From Methylococcaceae bacterium (GTDB taxonomy: Bacteria > Pseudomonadota > Gammaproteobacteria > Methylococcales > Methylomonadaceae): 41,210 bases of DNA. Positions within the stretch are counted from its first letter, which is position 1; the number at the start of each line of letters is the position of its first letter. A model generated the notes under the pieces. It ran no database searches. It saw only the letters and a list, made by a program, of their open reading frames with translations, and had not been told where the DNA came from. The stretch covers positions 1 through 41,210 of the forward strand of contig JABFRM010000036.1 of assembly GCA_013141155.1 (NCBI GenBank). The letters are read 5' to 3'. Below are positions 2,550 to 38,995 of this stretch, piece by piece. Made by a program: the position numbers and the translations under genes.

Positions 2550-3382
2550 TGTTAGCCATTGCCAGCACTGATTTTGCAATGGAGCAGACCCCAATAGCCC
2601 CTGTTTTTACGACCATTAAAGTGCAAGGGGCAGATTACGGCGCGTTGCCAGAGGATTTATATATTCCCCCAGATGCGTTGCAAATTTTTCTGGAAGCGTT
2701 TGAAGGCCCGTTGGATTTGTTGCTGTATCTGATACGCAAGCAAAATATTGATATTGTACATATTCCGGTTGCGGAAATTACCCGGCAATACATCAGCTAT
2801 ATAGCCTTGATGGAGCAATTGCAGCTTGATCTGGCAGCAGAATATTTGTTGATGGCAGCGTTGTTGACGGAAATTAAGTCGCGTTTATTATTGCCGCGTA
2901 AAATTGAAGCAGAAAATGAAGAAGAGGATCCGCGTGCCGAATTAATCCGGCGGTTACAAGAATATGAACGCATTAAACAAGCCGCAGAAGAGATTGATAC
3001 CTTGCCCAGACTGGAACGGGATATTTTTGAAACCTTTATTGATGTGAGTCAAATTACCGTTGAGCGGCCTTTACCGGACATCGCGTTTAAAGATTTATTG
3101 CTGGCGTTTCAGGATGTTTTAAAACGCGCCCATCAATTGAGCCATCATCAGATTATCAAAGAAGCTTTATCGGTACGGGAACGTATGAGCGCCATTTTAG
3201 GCTATTTAAATGGTTTGGAAAATGCCCTGTTCACTAAATTATTCACCCAAAAAGAAGGCCGGCACGGGGTGGTAGTGTCTTTTTTGGCGATTTTAGAATT
3301 AAGCAAAGAAGGTTTAATAGAAATTATTCAACCTGAACCGTTTGCAGAATTACGCGTTAGAAGTGTTGCGCAAAATGCTTAA
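2549..3382 (+). CDS. scpA: Segregation and condensation protein A
   Basis: The 277-residue kleisin subunit of the SMC-ScpAB condensin links SMC heads during chromosome segregation. The signature LEAFEGPLDLLLYLIRKQNI is near residues 48-67, followed by an acidic stretch (EAENEEEDPRAEL) and a C-terminal winged-helix region (HGVVVSFLAILELSKEG). The N-terminal 40 residues before the kleisin core are longer than usual. An in-frame ATG at 2579 is an alternative start, but the TAATG overlap with the protease gene supports coupling from 2549. No smc gene is present here. Confidence 0.93.
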   Translation: MLAIASTDFAMEQTPIAPVFTTIKVQGADYGALPEDLYIPPDALQIFLEAFEGPLDLLLYLIRKQNIDIVHIPVAEITRQYISYIALMEQLQLDLAAEYLLMAALLTEIKSRLLLPRKIEAENEEEDPRAELIRRLQEYERIKQAAEEIDTLPRLERDIFETFIDVSQITVERPLPDIAFKDLLLAFQDVLKRAHQLSHHQIIKEALSVRERMSAILGYLNGLENALFTKLFTQKEGRHGVVVSFLAILELSKEGLIEIIQPEPFAELRVRSVAQNA

Positions 3383-3404
3383 CAATGACTAATCCTTACT
3401 CAAC

Positions 3405-4034
3405 GTGAACATTAAAAAAATTGTCGAAGCCGTGTTATTTGCCAGTGATAAACCATTGTCACTCAAGCAATTGCAGGCGATTTTTCCTGAATTGCAACAA
3501 CCTGACATTAAAGCGCTCGAAGTGGCGGTAGCAGAGGTGATGCAAGATTACCATGATAGACCCGTGGAGTTGAAAGCCGTCGCCAGTGGCTATCGCTTTC
3601 AGGTCACTCAGGAAATGTCACCTTGGGTGTCGCGCTTATTTGATGAAAAGCCGCCCCGCTACTCACGCGCCTTATTGGAAACCTTAGCCATTATCGCTTA
3701 TCGGCAACCAGTTACGCGCGGCGAGATAGAGGATATTCGCGGTGTAGTCGTCAGCTCTAATATTATCCGCACGCTACTGGAACGCGAATGGATCAAAGTG
3801 GTCGCACACAAAGAAGTGCCAGGGCGGCCAGCGTTATACGCCTCCACCCAACAATTTTTGGATTATTTTAATTTGACCTCATTAGGTCAACTCCCCACCT
3901 TACAGGAAATTCAGGAACTGAATAAGCCCCTTAAGGATAATGAACAACCTACGCAGGCAGATCGTGAACAACAAGAAATCAACACACAACCCCTTCAAGA
4001 AACCGCAAGCATCGAAACCGAAAACGACACGTAA
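3405..4034 (+). CDS. scpB: Segregation and condensation protein B
   Basis: The 209-residue partner of ScpA has two winged-helix domains; KIVEAVLFASDKPLS begins the first, and LLETLAIIAYRQPVTRGEIE with IRGV is the family signature around residues 88-112. The reading frame begins at a GTG, and no ATG fits better. The C-terminal 40 residues are polar and Q/E rich, as is usual for ScpB tails. The last 95 bases overlap the predicted rluB start, so either rluB begins further downstream or the two genes overlap extensively. Confidence 0.92.
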   Translation: MNIKKIVEAVLFASDKPLSLKQLQAIFPELQQPDIKALEVAVAEVMQDYHDRPVELKAVASGYRFQVTQEMSPWVSRLFDEKPPRYSRALLETLAIIAYRQPVTRGEIEDIRGVVVSSNIIRTLLEREWIKVVAHKEVPGRPALYASTQQFLDYFNLTSLGQLPTLQEIQELNKPLKDNEQPTQADREQQEINTQPLQETASIETENDT

Positions 4035-4989
4035 AGAACCTGTCGCCACCGGTAAACATGCTGGAAAACAACCCAGAACTCCGCGCAAATCGAGCAGTGC
4101 TGCCCCCCCTGTGTCCACGGGTATGCAAAATAAAAACGTAGCGCAACCCGTCAAATTTAATGCGGCACTTAGAAGCCAAGACCCCGAAACCCCACCGGTA
4201 TATGCCAACGAAGCCGAGAGCAGTGAACGCATCCAAAAAGTATTGGCACGCGGCGGCATCGCCTCGCGCCGTGAAATTGAACGCTGGATTACCGAAGAGC
4301 GGCTTAAGCTCAATGGTCAAATCGCCAAGTTGGGTGACCGCCTAAAACCTGGCGACCATGTGTATGTTAATGGTCGCCCAATTATGTGGGAAAAATACGC
4401 CATTCAACCCACGCGGGTGATTGTCTACCATAAGCCAACTGGAGAAGTGGTTTCGCGCAAAGATCCACAAGGCCGCCCCTTAGTATTCAGCAAACTACCC
4501 AAGTTGTTGGTGGGTCGTTGGATTAGTGTCGGTCGCTTGGACATTAACACCTCCGGTTTATTGCTGCTCACCAATAACGGTGAATTAGCCAATCGCCTGA
4601 TGCACCCCGCCAGCATTATTGATCGCGAATATGCCGTACGGGTATTAGGAGATGTGAATGATGAGCTGTTAGCGCAGCTAAAACAAGGCATTGAGCTGGA
4701 AGATGGCCCTGCGAAATTTAACGATATTCAGCACTACGGCGGTGAAGGAGCCAATAAGTGGTACCACGTCACTGTTTGCGAAGGCCGCAATCGCTTGGTG
4801 CGGCGTTTATGGGAGGCGGTGGGGGTAACGGTCAGCCGCTTAATGCGCGTGCGTTACGGCCCGGCTTTTTTACCTAAAGGTTTAAAAACCCAAGATAGTT
4901 ATGAAATGACCGCTAAAGAACTGGACTTGTTGTTAGAGTATGTGGGCCTGCCGAAACAAAAGCTGTTTGCTGCCCCTGAGCGCCATTAA
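3940..4989 (+). CDS. rluB: 23S rRNA pseudouridine synthase RluB
   Basis: RluB converts U2605 of 23S rRNA to pseudouridine. After a basic, disordered N-terminal stretch of about 85 residues (many K, R, P) comes an S4 RNA-binding domain (ERIQKVLARGGIASRREIE). The RsuA/RluB catalytic domain follows, with the active-site motif GRLDINTSGLLLLTNNGEL (catalytic Asp in GRLD) and the C-terminal EGRNRLVRRLWEAVG. The frame from 3940 overlaps scpB by 95 bases; an in-frame ATG at 4123 would avoid the overlap and still keep the S4 domain, so the true start is uncertain. The stop codon sits inside the terminal repeat of the adjacent inverted-repeat element. Confidence 0.9.
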   Translation: MNNLRRQIVNNKKSTHNPFKKPQASKPKTTRKEPVATGKHAGKQPRTPRKSSSAAPPVSTGMQNKNVAQPVKFNAALRSQDPETPPVYANEAESSERIQKVLARGGIASRREIERWITEERLKLNGQIAKLGDRLKPGDHVYVNGRPIMWEKYAIQPTRVIVYHKPTGEVVSRKDPQGRPLVFSKLPKLLVGRWISVGRLDINTSGLLLLTNNGELANRLMHPASIIDREYAVRVLGDVNDELLAQLKQGIELEDGPAKFNDIQHYGGEGANKWYHVTVCEGRNRLVRRLWEAVGVTVSRLMRVRYGPAFLPKGLKTQDSYEMTAKELDLLLEYVGLPKQKLFAAPERH

Positions 4990-5165
4990 GGATTCCGTCA
5001 AAAATAACCTCCCCCCCTTTGAAAAAGGGGGATGGAGGGGGAGAGCAAAGCGAGGGGCGATATCTAATAAATCTCCCCTAACCCCTCTTTTTCAAAGAGG
5101 GGAACTGAGTGGCTACCCAGCAAGAACATTCACAAATCAGGAAGTTATTTTTTACGGAGCCTTAA
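4986..5165. repeat. MITE-like inverted-repeat element, copy 1
   Basis: This approximately 180-bp non-coding element is repeated almost base for base at 27908-28086. Its ends are imperfect inverted repeats: the left end reads TTAAGGATTCCGT then AAAAATAACCTCC, and the right end reads GGAAGTTATTTTTT then ACGGAGCCTTAA. Inside are two strong hairpins, CCCCCTTT-GAA-AAAGGGGG near 5013-5031 and CCCCTCTTT-TTC-AAAGAGGGG near 5083-5103. It begins on the rluB stop codon. The structure fits a miniature inverted-repeat transposable element with no transposase, possibly also acting as the rluB terminator. Open frames across it (PPFEKGG-type peptides) are artefacts of the hairpins. Confidence 0.8.
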
Positions 5166-26019: not shown

Positions 26020-26484
26020 TCATTTAATTAAAGTAGTGTTGTCGTTAAGCCAGGTTTGTAAAATTAATTGCGCGGCCAATTGATCTTGCACCGCCCATAA
26101 TTTGCTCGCGCTAACGTGCATTTCGTCAAATAATAGTTGTTTGGCTTCGTAGGTGGTTAAGGCTTCATCTATTTGATAAACAGGTAATGCAAAACGTCCT
26201 TCTAATTGCCTGCAAAATTTCTGCATACGCGGTGTAACGGGATTATCTGCGCCATCCGCTTGTTTGGAAATGCCGACCACTAAACCAGCAGGCGACCATT
26301 CCGCACAAAGCTTGCTAATGATTGTCCAGTCTGGCTGGTCATTTAGCGATCGAATCGTTTGTAAGGGACTCGCTATGCGGGTGATGGTTTGTCCGACAGC
26401 GACGCCAATTTTTTTAAGTCCGAAATCAAAACCCAAATAAGTATCCCGCTGGAGTTTGGCTTTAAGCGGGTCATTTTTAGGCAT
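26020..26484 (-). CDS. ruvX: RuvX/YqgF, Holliday junction resolvase-like / pre-16S rRNA nuclease
   Basis: The protein has the RNase H-like fold of YqgF: YLGFDFGLKKIGVAVGQ with the first catalytic Asp, LVVGISKQADG, and an acidic IDEALTTYEAKQLL motif. E. coli YqgF processes the 5' end of 16S rRNA. The ATG at 26484 gives 154 residues; a GTG at 26493 would add three residues and increase the overlap with yqgE from 8 to 17 bases. The yqgE-ruvX pair is conserved in gammaproteobacteria. Confidence 0.92.
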   Translation of the reverse strand: MPKNDPLKAKLQRDTYLGFDFGLKKIGVAVGQTITRIASPLQTIRSLNDQPDWTIISKLCAEWSPAGLVVGISKQADGADNPVTPRMQKFCRQLEGRFALPVYQIDEALTTYEAKQLLFDEMHVSASKLWAVQDQLAAQLILQTWLNDNTTLIK

Positions 26485-27040
26485 GACCGGCACGCATGGT
26501 GAGTAAATTAATATCTATGCCTATTTTTTTGGCGGCTAGATCCCAGCGTTGGGTAAAGGGCGTGGTAAATAATATATCCGTTGCGCAGGGGACGTTTAGC
26601 CAAGCATTGCTAACAAACTCTTGTTCTAATTGACCGGCACCCCAGCCTGCGTAACCTAATGCGACTAAGTAGTGTTTAGGGCCGGTGCCGTTGGCAATGG
26701 CTTCCAATACATCGCGCGAGGTAGTCAACGCAATACCCTCGGAAATAAGGATGGAAGAATCCCATTCGCCGCCAGCGTCATGGATGACAAAGCCACGTTC
26801 TTGCTGCACTGGGCCGCCGGAAAAAATATCGACATCCAGCGTTTCTGTGGCGGTGGCTTGAATGCCCATTTGCTTATAAATGTCACCCAATTTCATGCCC
26901 GCTGGGCGGTTAATCATAATGCCTAATGCGCCTTCAGTAGTGTGCTGACACAAATAGGTGACGGTATGAAAAAAACCGGGATCGGCTAACGTTGGCATAG
27001 CAATTAAAAACTGGTTGTTTAAAAAAGTAGATTCAGTCAT
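26477..27040 (-). CDS. yqgE: YqgE/AlgH family protein
   Basis: The 187-residue protein starts with LNNQFLIAMPTLADPGFFHTV and shows LGIMINRPAG, the family hallmarks, plus GGPVQQERGFVIH and LGYAGWGAGQLEQE in the C-terminal half. Function is not settled; AlgH was linked to alginate regulation in Pseudomonas. It appears to be the first gene of the yqgE-ruvX-pyrRBC'-LOG block, and its promoter should lie in the A/T-rich 27041-27277 gap. Confidence 0.92.
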   Translation of the reverse strand: MTESTFLNNQFLIAMPTLADPGFFHTVTYLCQHTTEGALGIMINRPAGMKLGDIYKQMGIQATATETLDVDIFSGGPVQQERGFVIHDAGGEWDSSILISEGIALTTSRDVLEAIANGTGPKHYLVALGYAGWGAGQLEQEFVSNAWLNVPCATDILFTTPFTQRWDLAAKKIGIDINLLTMRAGHA

Positions 27041-27277
27041 AAAGTGCTTATTTTTAGTTGGTTAGTTTTTATAGTGCATTTTGCGAGGGACGCACTCGCA
27101 CAGGGGAAACGATTATATGCTTGCTCTTAATAGCGCTACGTTTAAGTATAGCTAACTTTATCTTCAGCAACTATTTTATGCGATATAAATTTATCAGGAT
27201 GCCAAAAAATGGAGCTTCTGGTGGGTGTAAAAAATGCTCTGCTATTATTTAAAACCGTCATTTCTGGTGTGTTATTT

Positions 27278-27850
27278 TTAGTTGGCAGACGTACGTGATT
27301 TATCCGAAAAAGTATATATTCGGCTGATGATCAGTATATCCAGTTCGTTTAATAATGCTTCGGGTAATCTTGGGAAAGGCGCACTCATGTTAACAATTTG
27401 TATGGCCGCTTTATCTAAATCTGGGTAGCCAGAAAATTTTTGGATATTAATGCTGTCAATACTGCCGTCTGCCTTAATACCTACATCTATGGTCGCATGC
27501 GCTACTGCAATATTTTTCATGGCCGCCTCGGGGAAATTCCGAGAACCGACCGCTTCAACTTTTTGTATAAAATCGTTTTTATATTGCGCTACAATTGATT
27601 CATTGGCGCTCACGGCATTGGCCAGTTTGATGCGTGAGACTTCTTCACCCTGTTTTTCGTGATTAGTGATTTGCGCGCCTAATTCTGCAATTTGCGTTTG
27701 TAACTCGTCGAGTGATAATTGTGGCTGTGTCTTAGGCGCTTTACGTTCAGTTAGCTTGGCTGTGGGCAAGGCTTTAGATTCACCTGAAGTTAAAACTATT
27801 CCCCAAAAAAGAAAAGTAAAACACATAAATTTAAACTTCTGTGATTCCAT
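27278..27850 (-). CDS. Secreted TonB C-terminal-domain duplicate
   Basis: From an ATG at 27850 the protein has 190 residues with a signal peptide (KFKFMCFTFLFWGIVLTSGESKA, likely cut after SKA), a short coiled segment (LQTQIAELGAQITNHEKQGEE) and a TonB-type C-terminal domain (VGIKADGSIDSINIQKFSGYPDLDKAA). AAAGG lies 8 bases before this ATG, which is why I prefer it over the in-frame ATG at 27907. It lacks the N-terminal anchor and proline-rich region of true TonB, so it is likely a soluble periplasmic protein. It is a close copy of the C-terminal half of the gene at 28125-29006. Confidence 0.75.
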   Translation of the reverse strand: MESQKFKFMCFTFLFWGIVLTSGESKALPTAKLTERKAPKTQPQLSLDELQTQIAELGAQITNHEKQGEEVSRIKLANAVSANESIVAQYKNDFIQKVEAVGSRNFPEAAMKNIAVAHATIDVGIKADGSIDSINIQKFSGYPDLDKAAIQIVNMSAPFPRLPEALLNELDILIISRIYTFSDKSRTSAN

Positions 27851-27907
27851 TTTGCTAGCCTTTCTAAAATTGTTAATTGTTATCTGAAAGTCCCGTTTTT
27901 GACTCAT

Positions 27908-28086
27908 GGTTAGGATTCCGTCAAAAATAACTTCCCCCTTTGAAAAAGGGGGTCGAGGGGGAGAGCAAAGCGAGGGGCGATATCTAATAAATCTCCCCTA
28001 ACCCCTCTTTTTCAAAGAGGGGGACTGAGTGGCTACCCAGCAAGAACATTCACAAATCAGGAAGTTATTTTTAACCAAATCCTTAG
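27908..28086. repeat. MITE-like inverted-repeat element, copy 2
   Basis: The element is nearly identical to 4986-5165 over its full length. The inner ends are a perfect 13-bp inverted repeat (AAAAATAACTTCC at 27923-27935 against GGAAGTTATTTTT at 28060-28072), and weaker pairing (AGGATT/AATCCT) continues outward. It carries the same two C5/G5-type hairpins and the same internal segment. It lies exactly between the two TonB-like paralogues and could insulate or terminate transcription from the upstream copy. Confidence 0.8.
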
Positions 28087-28124
28087 TTAAAAAAGTAAAG
28101 TCACTACTTTTGACACTTGATTTC

Positions 28125-29006
28125 TTAGTTAGCAGACATACGTGATTTATCCGAAAAAGTATATTCTCGGCTGATGACCAGTATATCCAGTTCGTTCAAT
28201 AATGCTTTGGGTAGTTTTGGGAAAGGTGCGCTCATACTAACGATTTTTTTAGCCGCTTTATCTAAAGCCGGGTAGCCGGAAGATTTTTGGATATTAATGC
28301 TGTAAATACTGCCATCTGCCTTAATGCCAACGTTCATAGTTACATGTGCTAAAGCAACGTTCTTCATTGCCGCCTCGGGGAAATTCAATGAGCCGATGCG
28401 TTCAACTTTTTGTATGAAATCATTTTTATATTGCGCTGCAATAGATTTATTGGCACTCACAGCGCTGGTCAATTTGATGCGCGAGATTTCTTCACCCTGT
28501 TTTTCGTGCTTAGCGATTTGAGCGCCTAATTCTGCAATTTGCGTTTTTAAGGTGTCGAGTGATAATTGCGGTTGTGGTTGCGACGGTGTTTTAGGGATTT
28601 CCTGTTCGACTATTTGGGTGGTGGGCAGTGCTTTTTTGGATACTTTTTGGGTAATGATTTTGGGGGCTGCCTGATGTTTTACTGGTGCAGGGTTTTGGGT
28701 TAAGACGGGCTTTTCTGTTTGCCCTACGCTGGGTATTTTTTGCTTAGGGGACGTGGGTTTTATTTTTTTCTGTCCCCCACCGAGTTGATGTTCTGGCGCC
28801 AAATAGCGTGCATGTTTGGGAGGCTTTGGCGTCGTTTTGGCTTCCAGGGTTATTTCAATGTCTCTATTGATACGTTTGGGTTTGGACGATGAAAAATTGA
28901 TGAGCAATAATAAGGCATGAAAAATAATCGCCGCGAATACCGCAATGAGCAAGCGATCATTACGGGAAACGACGGAAGTGGGCTTAAATAAAATGGAATT
29001 AGCCAT
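28125..29006 (-). CDS. TonB-like energy transducer
   Basis: The 293-residue protein from the ATG at 29006 has one N-terminal membrane anchor (LLIAVFAAIIFHALLLLINF), a long Lys/Pro-rich periplasmic spacer, a short coiled segment (LKTQIAELGAQIAKHEKQ) and a TonB C-terminal domain (VGIKADGSIYSINIQKSSGYPALDKAAKKI). It would couple the proton motive force to outer-membrane receptors, although no exbBD or receptor is nearby. A TTG at 29027 is an alternative start. The ATG overlaps the gshB stop by 8 bases, implying coupling to gshB. Confidence 0.85.
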   Translation of the reverse strand: MANSILFKPTSVVSRNDRLLIAVFAAIIFHALLLLINFSSSKPKRINRDIEITLEAKTTPKPPKHARYLAPEHQLGGGQKKIKPTSPKQKIPSVGQTEKPVLTQNPAPVKHQAAPKIITQKVSKKALPTTQIVEQEIPKTPSQPQPQLSLDTLKTQIAELGAQIAKHEKQGEEISRIKLTSAVSANKSIAAQYKNDFIQKVERIGSLNFPEAAMKNVALAHVTMNVGIKADGSIYSINIQKSSGYPALDKAAKKIVSMSAPFPKLPKALLNELDILVISREYTFSDKSRMSAN

Positions 29007-29955
29007 GATGCGAGAGGGTATTGGCAATATGATCCATTAATAAGCCGCTAATGTTGATATTAAATTGCTTATTGAGTTCTTGTACACAAGTGGGGCTGGT
29101 AACGTTGATTTCGGTTAAATAATCGCCAATAACATCTATGCCGACAAACACCAGACCTTTTTCGCGTAAAGTTGGCCCTACCTGCTCGGCAATCCATCTG
29201 TCGCGTGGGGTCAATGGACGCCCTTCTGCCGTCCCGCCAGCCGCCAAATTGCCACGGGTTTCGCCTGGTGCGGGGATGCGCGCCAAGGCATAGGGGATTA
29301 CTTCGCCATTGACCAATAAAATACGCTTATCGCCGCCCTTGATTTCGGGCAAATATTTTTGCGCCATCACATAGCGGGTATTGTACTGAGTCATGGTTTC
29401 CAAAATCACGCTTAAATTGGGGTCGCCCTGTTGCAGATAAAAAATGGAGGTGCCGCCCATACCGTCTAATGGCTTTAAGATGATTTTACCGTGTTCGGCT
29501 AGAAAATCCCTAAACAAATGCGGCTCTCTGGCAACCAAGGTATCTGCGCAACACTGTGGAAACCAGGCGGTAAACAGTTTTTCATTGGCATCACGCAGCG
29601 ATTGCGGTTTGTTGATGACATAAGCCCCCAAACTTTCTGCACGTTCCAGCAGGTAGGTGGCATAGATGTACTCTTGATCAAAAGGCGGGTCTTTGCGCAT
29701 TAAGATCACATCCAGCTCATCCAACGGCAAATTTTGTTCTGCCGTAAATTCAAACCAGCACTTAGCATCCCGTTGCACCCGCAGTGTTTGCGTTCTGGCG
29801 TAGGCGCGACCATTGCGTAGATACAAATCGTTGAGTTGCATATAATGCAGCTCCCACCCTCGTGCTTGGGCTTCAAGCAGCATGTCGAAACTGGTGTCTT
29901 TTTTAATGTTAATCTGAGCGATGGGATCCATCACTATACCGAGTTTTATAGGCAT
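28999..29955 (-). CDS. gshB: Glutathione synthetase
   Basis: The 318-residue ATP-grasp ligase adds glycine to gamma-glutamylcysteine. It starts KLGIVMDPIAQINIKKDTSF, the usual GshB opening, and shows ILKPLDGMGGTSIF (ATP-grasp P-loop-like), RILLVNGEVIPYALARIP and FVGIDVIGDYLTEINVTSPT (metal-binding Glu/Asn near the C-terminus). Length matches E. coli GshB (316). It is followed by tonB with overlap and is divergent from rpmB. Confidence 0.96.
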   Translation of the reverse strand: MPIKLGIVMDPIAQINIKKDTSFDMLLEAQARGWELHYMQLNDLYLRNGRAYARTQTLRVQRDAKCWFEFTAEQNLPLDELDVILMRKDPPFDQEYIYATYLLERAESLGAYVINKPQSLRDANEKLFTAWFPQCCADTLVAREPHLFRDFLAEHGKIILKPLDGMGGTSIFYLQQGDPNLSVILETMTQYNTRYVMAQKYLPEIKGGDKRILLVNGEVIPYALARIPAPGETRGNLAAGGTAEGRPLTPRDRWIAEQVGPTLREKGLVFVGIDVIGDYLTEINVTSPTCVQELNKQFNINISGLLMDHIANTLSHHG

Positions 29956-38885: not shown

Positions 38886-38995
38886 AAATAACCTCCCAAA
38901 ATTCTGCTCATATCGAATCGCCCCTCTTTGAAAAAGAGGGGCTGGGGGAGATTTTTTAAAAACTCCCTCAATCCCCCTTTTTGAAAGGGGGAAGC
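38886..38995. repeat. Related hairpin repeat overlapping the multicopper oxidase 3' end
   Basis: The left end reads AAATAACCTCCC, matching the terminus of the elements at 4986 and 27908. Two hairpins follow: GCCCCTCTTT-GAA-AAAGAGGGGC at 38920-38942 and CCCCCTTT-TTG-AAAGGGGG at 38973-38991. The internal sequence differs from the other two copies, so it is a diverged or deleted member. It provides the stop codon and last residues of the multicopper oxidase gene and can fold into a terminator-like structure. Confidence 0.65.

Follow-up and report, generated by a model that had tools for sequence, protein, structure and literature searches.

A tandem partial duplicate of a gshB-linked TonB-like gene in a Methylococcaceae bacterium, probably a selected gene for a putative exported TonB tip

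Overview

In the genome of a Methylococcaceae bacterium (assembly GCA_013141155.1), the 3' half of a gshB-linked TonB-like gene has been copied directly downstream, in a partial duplication specific to the lineage. The resulting short gene, seen in this one genome, is probably a real and selected gene for a putative exported TonB tip. We think, at a probability of about 0.45, that its product is a soluble or weakly tethered, un-energised periplasmic TonB tip, which would bind the partner of the long protein and dampen or scaffold the action of the latter. The window, i.e., the whole stretch of DNA that was analysed, comprises 41,210 nucleotides (contig JABFRM010000036.1, positions 1 to 41,210), and it is the source of all coordinates given below for this locus. 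Two PF02461 (AMO/pMMO) matches in the genome indicate that the host is most likely a methanotroph.

The locus and the extent of the duplication

On the minus strand the order of genes is gshB, long tonB, a MITE, the short tonB copy, yqgE, ruvX, pyrR and pyrB, the names having been assigned by eye and from gene order. The long gene (28125-29006, minus strand; open reading frame and Pfam) encodes 293 amino acids from its ATG and comprises an N-terminal membrane anchor with a conserved His, a Pro-rich spacer, a coil and a TonB C-terminal domain; its start is overlapped by gshB, the glutathione synthetase gene (28999-29955, minus strand). The short copy (27278-27850, minus strand; open reading frame, Pfam and AlphaFold2 model) encodes 190 amino acids, namely a signal-peptide-like leader, a spacer remnant, the coil and the TonB C-terminal domain, with no anchor. 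Its longest open reading frame spans 27278-27907 on the same strand, so that 27907 is an alternative start; the better ribosome-binding site, judged by eye, stands at the ATG at 27850.

Among 29 loci, which are those recovered from 36 other family genomes, gshB lies upstream of tonB in every one (about 550 nt away in one of them, L020), and yqgE follows tonB directly in 22, the remaining seven having no yqgE within the stretch examined. At the studied locus the short copy is inserted between the long tonB and yqgE (26477-27040, minus strand), and the site of the copying can be read from the order gshB-tonB-tonB'-yqgE. In two other genomes of the same genus (loci L070 and L076, genomes G001 and G002) there is no yqgE after tonB in the stretch examined, so this spot seems rearranged in both.

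The tandem duplication claimed in an earlier note on this DNA is borne out: a shorter copy stands directly downstream of a full-length TonB-like gene and retains the coil and the TonB C-terminal domain, with 119 of 147 residues identical. The shared part, 147 codons long, holds 66 nucleotide differences (19, 13 and 34 at codon positions 1, 2 and 3), no stop and zero net length change, and a 300-nt core of the repeat is 84% identical. A gapped alignment of the copies contains one compensated one-base gap pair, which could equally be a run of substitutions. Strong conservation covers 27274-27728 (minus strand) and stops about 4 nt beyond both stop codons, and within the shared part the nucleotide identity varies little and reveals no clear boundary of a tract. 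From 27729 to 27776 (minus strand) there follows a weakly conserved remnant of the spacer (KALPT...), whose homology to the long gene was assessed by alignment against shuffled sequences; its score of 16 compares with a shuffled mean of 8.1 and was reached by none of 500 shuffles. The flanks tested beyond the shared part have no similarity between the copies. A larger duplicated block was considered and rejected, since these flanks are unlike each other and the 234 nt that separate the short copy from yqgE occur once in the genome (next-best match with E 0.11).

Occurrence in other genomes

The long protein has a relative in all the 61 genomes of a first survey, and the short protein, used as a query, matches 224 of 237 family genomes; among the 13 with no match, 11 are less than 90% complete. 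The pair itself, which the earlier note proposed to seek in relatives, is present as a tandem in one of the 237 genomes, the one studied here. Seven genomes give two matches, and in the other six these are on different contigs. In G062 and G028 the second match is anchored, as judged by eye; in G115 the two matches are overlapping pieces, each at the end of a contig, and most likely belong to one split gene; and in G180, G211 and G237 the second match is weak. The 61-genome survey likewise gave one gene in two pieces (G010, G044 and G050) or a second match far away (G019, G028 and G053). Contig breaks could hide a pair in some genomes, as in G003, in which the contig ends 335 nt past tonB.

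Some of these loci deserve mention on their own account. The second matches of G028 and G062 (L071 and L145), which belong to one genus, are anchored gshB-type TonBs, and among the relatives it is the gshB-linked copy of G028 (L072) that departs most often from invariant positions. Outside the family but within the order, the distant genome G060 (L069) has two anchored TonB-like genes in tandem, flanked by gshB and yqgE (2588-3502 and 3533-4366 of that locus), which is most likely an independent event.

Domain family and predicted fold

Both copies score above the cut-offs of the TonB C-terminal families: 36.1 bits (short) and 39.5 bits (long) for TonB_C (PF03544; cut-off 24.6), and 31.4 and 40.2 bits, respectively, for TonB_2 (PF13103; cut-off 22). 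They also pass the cut-off of the NCBIfam model tonB_Cterm. AlphaFold2 predicts a TonB/TolA-type fold with good confidence for about residues 80-182 of the short protein, with pLDDT block means of 82-98 at residues 91-180 and of 46-59 at residues 1-40. The best fits of this model to TolA and TonB domains under VIA-align are those to TolA III of P. aeruginosa (Z 10.0, rmsd 2.9, 97 residues) and to TonB of H. pylori (Z 9.3, rmsd 2.8, 96 residues), the lower-ranked rows of the fold searches being unrelated proteins. A sequence search of the PDB gave 11 matches, eight of which are TonB, TolA or HasB chains and three unrelated. The near-invariant His of the anchor (column 34 of alignment A1) is present in the long copy and missing from the short one. 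This alignment holds 32 of the 35 related rows, leaving aside L009 and L017 (close to L006 and L014) and L074, and the start codons of the relatives were picked by rule.

The leader of the short copy

The earlier note also stated that the anchor and the Pro-rich spacer had been lost and a signal peptide put in their place. The loss stands, and the leader (27774-27850, minus strand) is signal-peptide-like by rule and finds no match in the long gene. Its source was sought by blastn of 27740-27912 in 41 genomes, with chance-size matches as the outcome (best E 0.002 over 25 nt). From the start at 27850, a simple home-made signal-peptide rule finds a hydrophobic core of 2.29, a charge of +1 and a first possible site at LTS. 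Five exported-looking controls have cores of 1.97-2.65 and 12 cytoplasmic-type controls have cores of at most 1.57; as most of the latter also have a "site", it is the hydrophobic core that discriminates. The anchor of the long protein scores a core of 3.3 under the same rule. From the start at 27907 the rule fails, with a core of 0.25 within the scanned stretch and no site. By eye, the core of the short protein spans some 13-15 residues, with possible cleavage sites after it at LTS (by rule) and SKA (by eye). We think that the leader is probably a Sec signal peptide, and that the product would be exported. Shuffling the leader 1000 times gave 24 signal-peptide-like leaders, all of them among the 122 shuffles with an open frame, so such a leader could easily arise de novo in T-rich DNA.

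The MITE between the copies and the transcription signals

The element between the copies is a real MITE (27912-28082, about 171 nt), with terminal inverted repeats AGGATT...AATCC, TT flanks at 27910-27911 and 28083-28084, and no coding capacity. It has 36 matches in the genome, seven of them near full length, and the six copies in which both ends are present all have a 2-bp target duplication, TT/TT or TA/TA. A second near-full copy is present in the window at 4989-5155, and short pieces of its palindrome occur at 38921-38991, near a multicopper oxidase gene. The earlier note was right in seeing a MITE, and only loosely right in placing it exactly between the copies, as it begins 42 nt past the stop codon of the long gene and ends about 60 nt before the start of the short one. 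A role of the MITE as the maker of the duplication was considered and is unsupported, because the element reaches neither end of the duplication and recurs at other sites in the genome.

Inside the MITE, on the operon strand, there is a terminator-like hairpin (27952-27934), which may separate the short gene from the transcript of the long gene; the region scanned has eight terminator-like sites versus a shuffled mean of 4.0. Ahead of the short gene there is a weak promoter-like match (27876-27849), although such sites are not above the shuffled background (nine found versus a mean of 7.1, sd 3.0).

Selection on the shared part

Between the copies, dN/dS is 0.207 (NG86), 0.325 (YN00) or 0.279 (ML). 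The copy-to-copy value was the only one used, because dS to other species is near saturation. The observed difference amounts to 32 amino-acid changes against 34 synonymous ones. Simulations were run with the short copy either neutral or constrained and with an omega of 0.07, 0.15 or 0.3 for the long copy, at 400 runs per setting. With a neutral short copy, none of the 400 runs at any setting (0 of 1200 in total) had as few amino-acid changes as observed, and 13, 28 and 24 of 400 runs, in the order of the long-copy omegas, were free of stops. With an omega of 0.5 for the short copy the observed count was reached in 142, 35 and 1 of 400 runs, and with 0.3 in 392, 373 and 90, so that a short copy under constraint agrees with the data. 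Thus, the simulations reject neutrality for the full period since the split, and purifying selection has acted on the shared part during that time. Gene conversion could mimic such selection, and selection may also have acted early after the copying and then given way to drift.

The comparison of substitution rates proposed in the earlier note has a double outcome. Constraint is evident from a dN/dS of 0.21-0.33, and the short copy is the faster one, with a branch length of 0.23 versus 0.032 for the long copy. When polarised with L003, 11 residue changes fall on the short copy and three on the long one, 14 others not being polarisable. This faster branch, together with the higher number of departures at near-invariant columns (see below), suggests that the constraint on the short copy may be loosening.

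Shared departures in the C-terminal domains of the two copies

In a tree of 41 rows the copies are sisters (support 100/100), and nearest to the pair is L003, a gene from a genome of the same genus (fork 99/89); the common stem of the pair is long, 0.70 changes per column. The upstream copy had been taken as a normal TonB in the earlier note, which does not hold for its C-terminal domain. Of 29 columns invariant in 31 relatives (the four most distant of the 35 related rows, L038, L069, L074 and L078, having been left out beforehand), the long copy departs at five and the short one at the same five. Both carry the same residue at four of these (H to N, W to F, N to S and W to Y), and the fifth is L to V or A. 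Leave-one-out counts for the relatives have a median of 0 and a maximum of 4 of 33, in L072. The contrast is less marked at columns conserved to 90%, where the long copy departs at 8 of 54 and the short one at 12 of 54, with a median of 2 for the relatives and 13 of 57 in L072. Four further departures of the short copy at near-invariant columns are A to V, M to I, S to F and K to I.

The identity to L003 is 62.7% in the anchor, 54.8% in the spacer and 59.9% in the C-terminal part, whereas that between L003 and L004 is 53.3%, 42.9% and 69.2%, respectively; the gshB genes of this locus and of L003 are 89% identical. The excess of changes is thus confined to the C-terminal part, which means either that remodelling preceded the copying or that changes were spread by conversion.

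Which TonB was duplicated

The genome has five TonB_C matches, two of which are the studied pair. Two other TonBs (contigs C90 and C13) adjoin exbD and an exbB-like gene, exbB being named by eye. The fifth, on contig C284 (L081:1907-2677), is weak, with 23.0 bits as a protein against the cut-off of 24.6 and 25.8 bits in the genome scan. It is a second exported-looking protein with a weak TonB_C at its end, and it lies beside a gene that we take to be CHASE2-like. ExbD has four matches, two of which go with the TonBs of C90 and C13. The one on C286 (L138) is at a contig end beside a TonB-dependent receptor gene, its TonB being beyond the assembled stretch, and hence the gshB-linked TonB may yet have a role in uptake. 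The one on C261 comes after ExbB and is followed by lpxK and a kdsB-like gene, surroundings that we take to be those of pocA-pocB in Pseudomonas. No exbBD genes are present beside the gshB-linked tonB or the short copy. In P. aeruginosa, tonB3 is presumably placed between gshB and yqgE, so the parent of the short copy is putatively TonB3-like and the exbB-exbD-lpxK cluster putatively PocAB-like, identities that rest on the gene order in Pseudomonas. PilQ is also present in the genome, above its cut-off.

Discussion

In the mechanism that we propose, the 3' half of the gshB-linked, putatively TonB3-like gene was copied directly downstream and the copy acquired a new leader, probably a Sec signal peptide. 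Judging from the leader and the predicted fold, the product would most likely be a soluble or weakly tethered periplasmic TonB C-terminal domain. Devoid of the anchor with its conserved His, it would not be energisable, and it would most likely bind the same partner as the long protein. Candidate partners are a type IV pilus/Poc-type partner, the cell wall or the C-terminal domain of the long protein itself, and the effect may be to dampen or scaffold the action of the long protein. A more daring version, which we consider a long shot, sees the short protein as a natural, exported and energy-blind tip by which the cell would itself supply a soluble antagonist or adaptor for a TonB3/Poc-type machine. 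The rare changes common to both tips would then reflect their co-evolution on one remodelled partner, for instance the PilQ secretin or the cell wall.

Several other explanations were weighed against this one. It is somewhat unlikely, yet to be reckoned with, that the short gene is a transient duplicate, selected for some time after copying and now drifting towards loss. Its long branch, its four further near-invariant departures and its occurrence in one genome speak for this, but 190 codons are free of stops, the model of the domain has high confidence and the simulations reject neutrality for the full period since the split. The history of the pair might also be older than it looks, the copies having been homogenised by gene conversion, which is compatible with any functional reading. 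The shared changes at invariant columns, the long stem and an excess of change confined to the C-terminal part, with anchor and spacer as close to L003 as expected, are consistent with it. The evenness of identity along the shared part argues against it, and the divergence from L003 sets in some 40 residues within the shared part and not at its edge; besides, the low identity of the spacer remnant is about that of unselected sites at the given dS, by a hand estimate. We thus regard homogenisation as unlikely.

It is quite improbable that the leader remains uncleaved and holds a mini-TonB in the inner membrane as a signal anchor, making it a short-reach partner of the long protein: the hydrophobic core is strong by rule, but it is short, possible cleavage sites come after it and the conserved His of the anchor is missing. 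Finally, the earlier note suggested a decoy, the exported domain binding TonB boxes of outer-membrane transporters and so damping uptake. This is possible in kind, given the TonB-like fold of the model, and it has a laboratory precedent, as the separately made periplasmic domain of TonB reportedly inhibits FecA/FhuA transport in E. coli (Howard et al. 2001); the ExbD beside a TonB-dependent receptor at a contig end, with its TonB unseen, also leaves some room for it. Nevertheless, the partner it names is probably of the wrong class. That the tip competes for receptor TonB boxes is a weak guess because the parent is gshB-linked with no exbBD, while two other TonBs adjoin these genes. Moreover, both copies have substitutions in and around the stretch corresponding to the YP motif in TonBs of solved structure, namely N to S at an invariant column and Y to F at a 90% column. 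We therefore find the decoy very doubtful.

If the gene is one kept by selection for an anchorless tip, it would offer a handle on what TonB3-type proteins bind, a point that the available text of PMC5285504 leaves open while suggesting the N0 domain of PilQ. If the copy is instead transient, it makes a modest example of a duplicate that shed its coupling to the motor and picked up an export-like leader, of a type obtained fairly often from shuffled DNA of the same make-up. Among the matches listed for the literature on TonB3/Poc and on periplasmic TonB, which cover few subscription journals and were available in part, there is no natural soluble tandem TonB copy.

Comparison with known systems

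The closest parallel to the long copy is TonB3 of P. aeruginosa, likewise a TonB-like protein with no adjacent exbBD, the presumed likeness being one of gene order. PocA, PocB and TonB3 are all three needed for the expression and/or polar placing of type IV pili in that species, and an interaction of TonB3 with the N0 domain of PilQ has been suggested (PMC5285504); a soluble second copy goes unmentioned in the available text of this source. The genome studied here has PilQ too, as well as putatively pocAB-like genes (exbB-exbD-lpxK).

The TonB energy transducers that work with ExbB-ExbD (PF03544) have the C-terminal domain and the fold in common with the short copy. They possess an anchor and a spacer, both absent from the latter, which thus would not couple to ExbB-ExbD in the known way, and neither copy here adjoins exbBD. 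The pair of genome G060, from another family of the same taxonomic order, likewise has a second TonB-like gene between the gshB-linked tonB and yqgE; unlike the short copy, that second gene keeps its membrane anchor (by eye) and is very diverged, with a branch of 2.06. The construct of Howard et al. 2001 resembles the short copy in being a periplasmic TonB domain made on its own, but it is a laboratory product derived from an iron-uptake TonB. A selected gene for an anchorless TonB tip, if this is what it is, would be the natural counterpart of that laboratory inhibitor.
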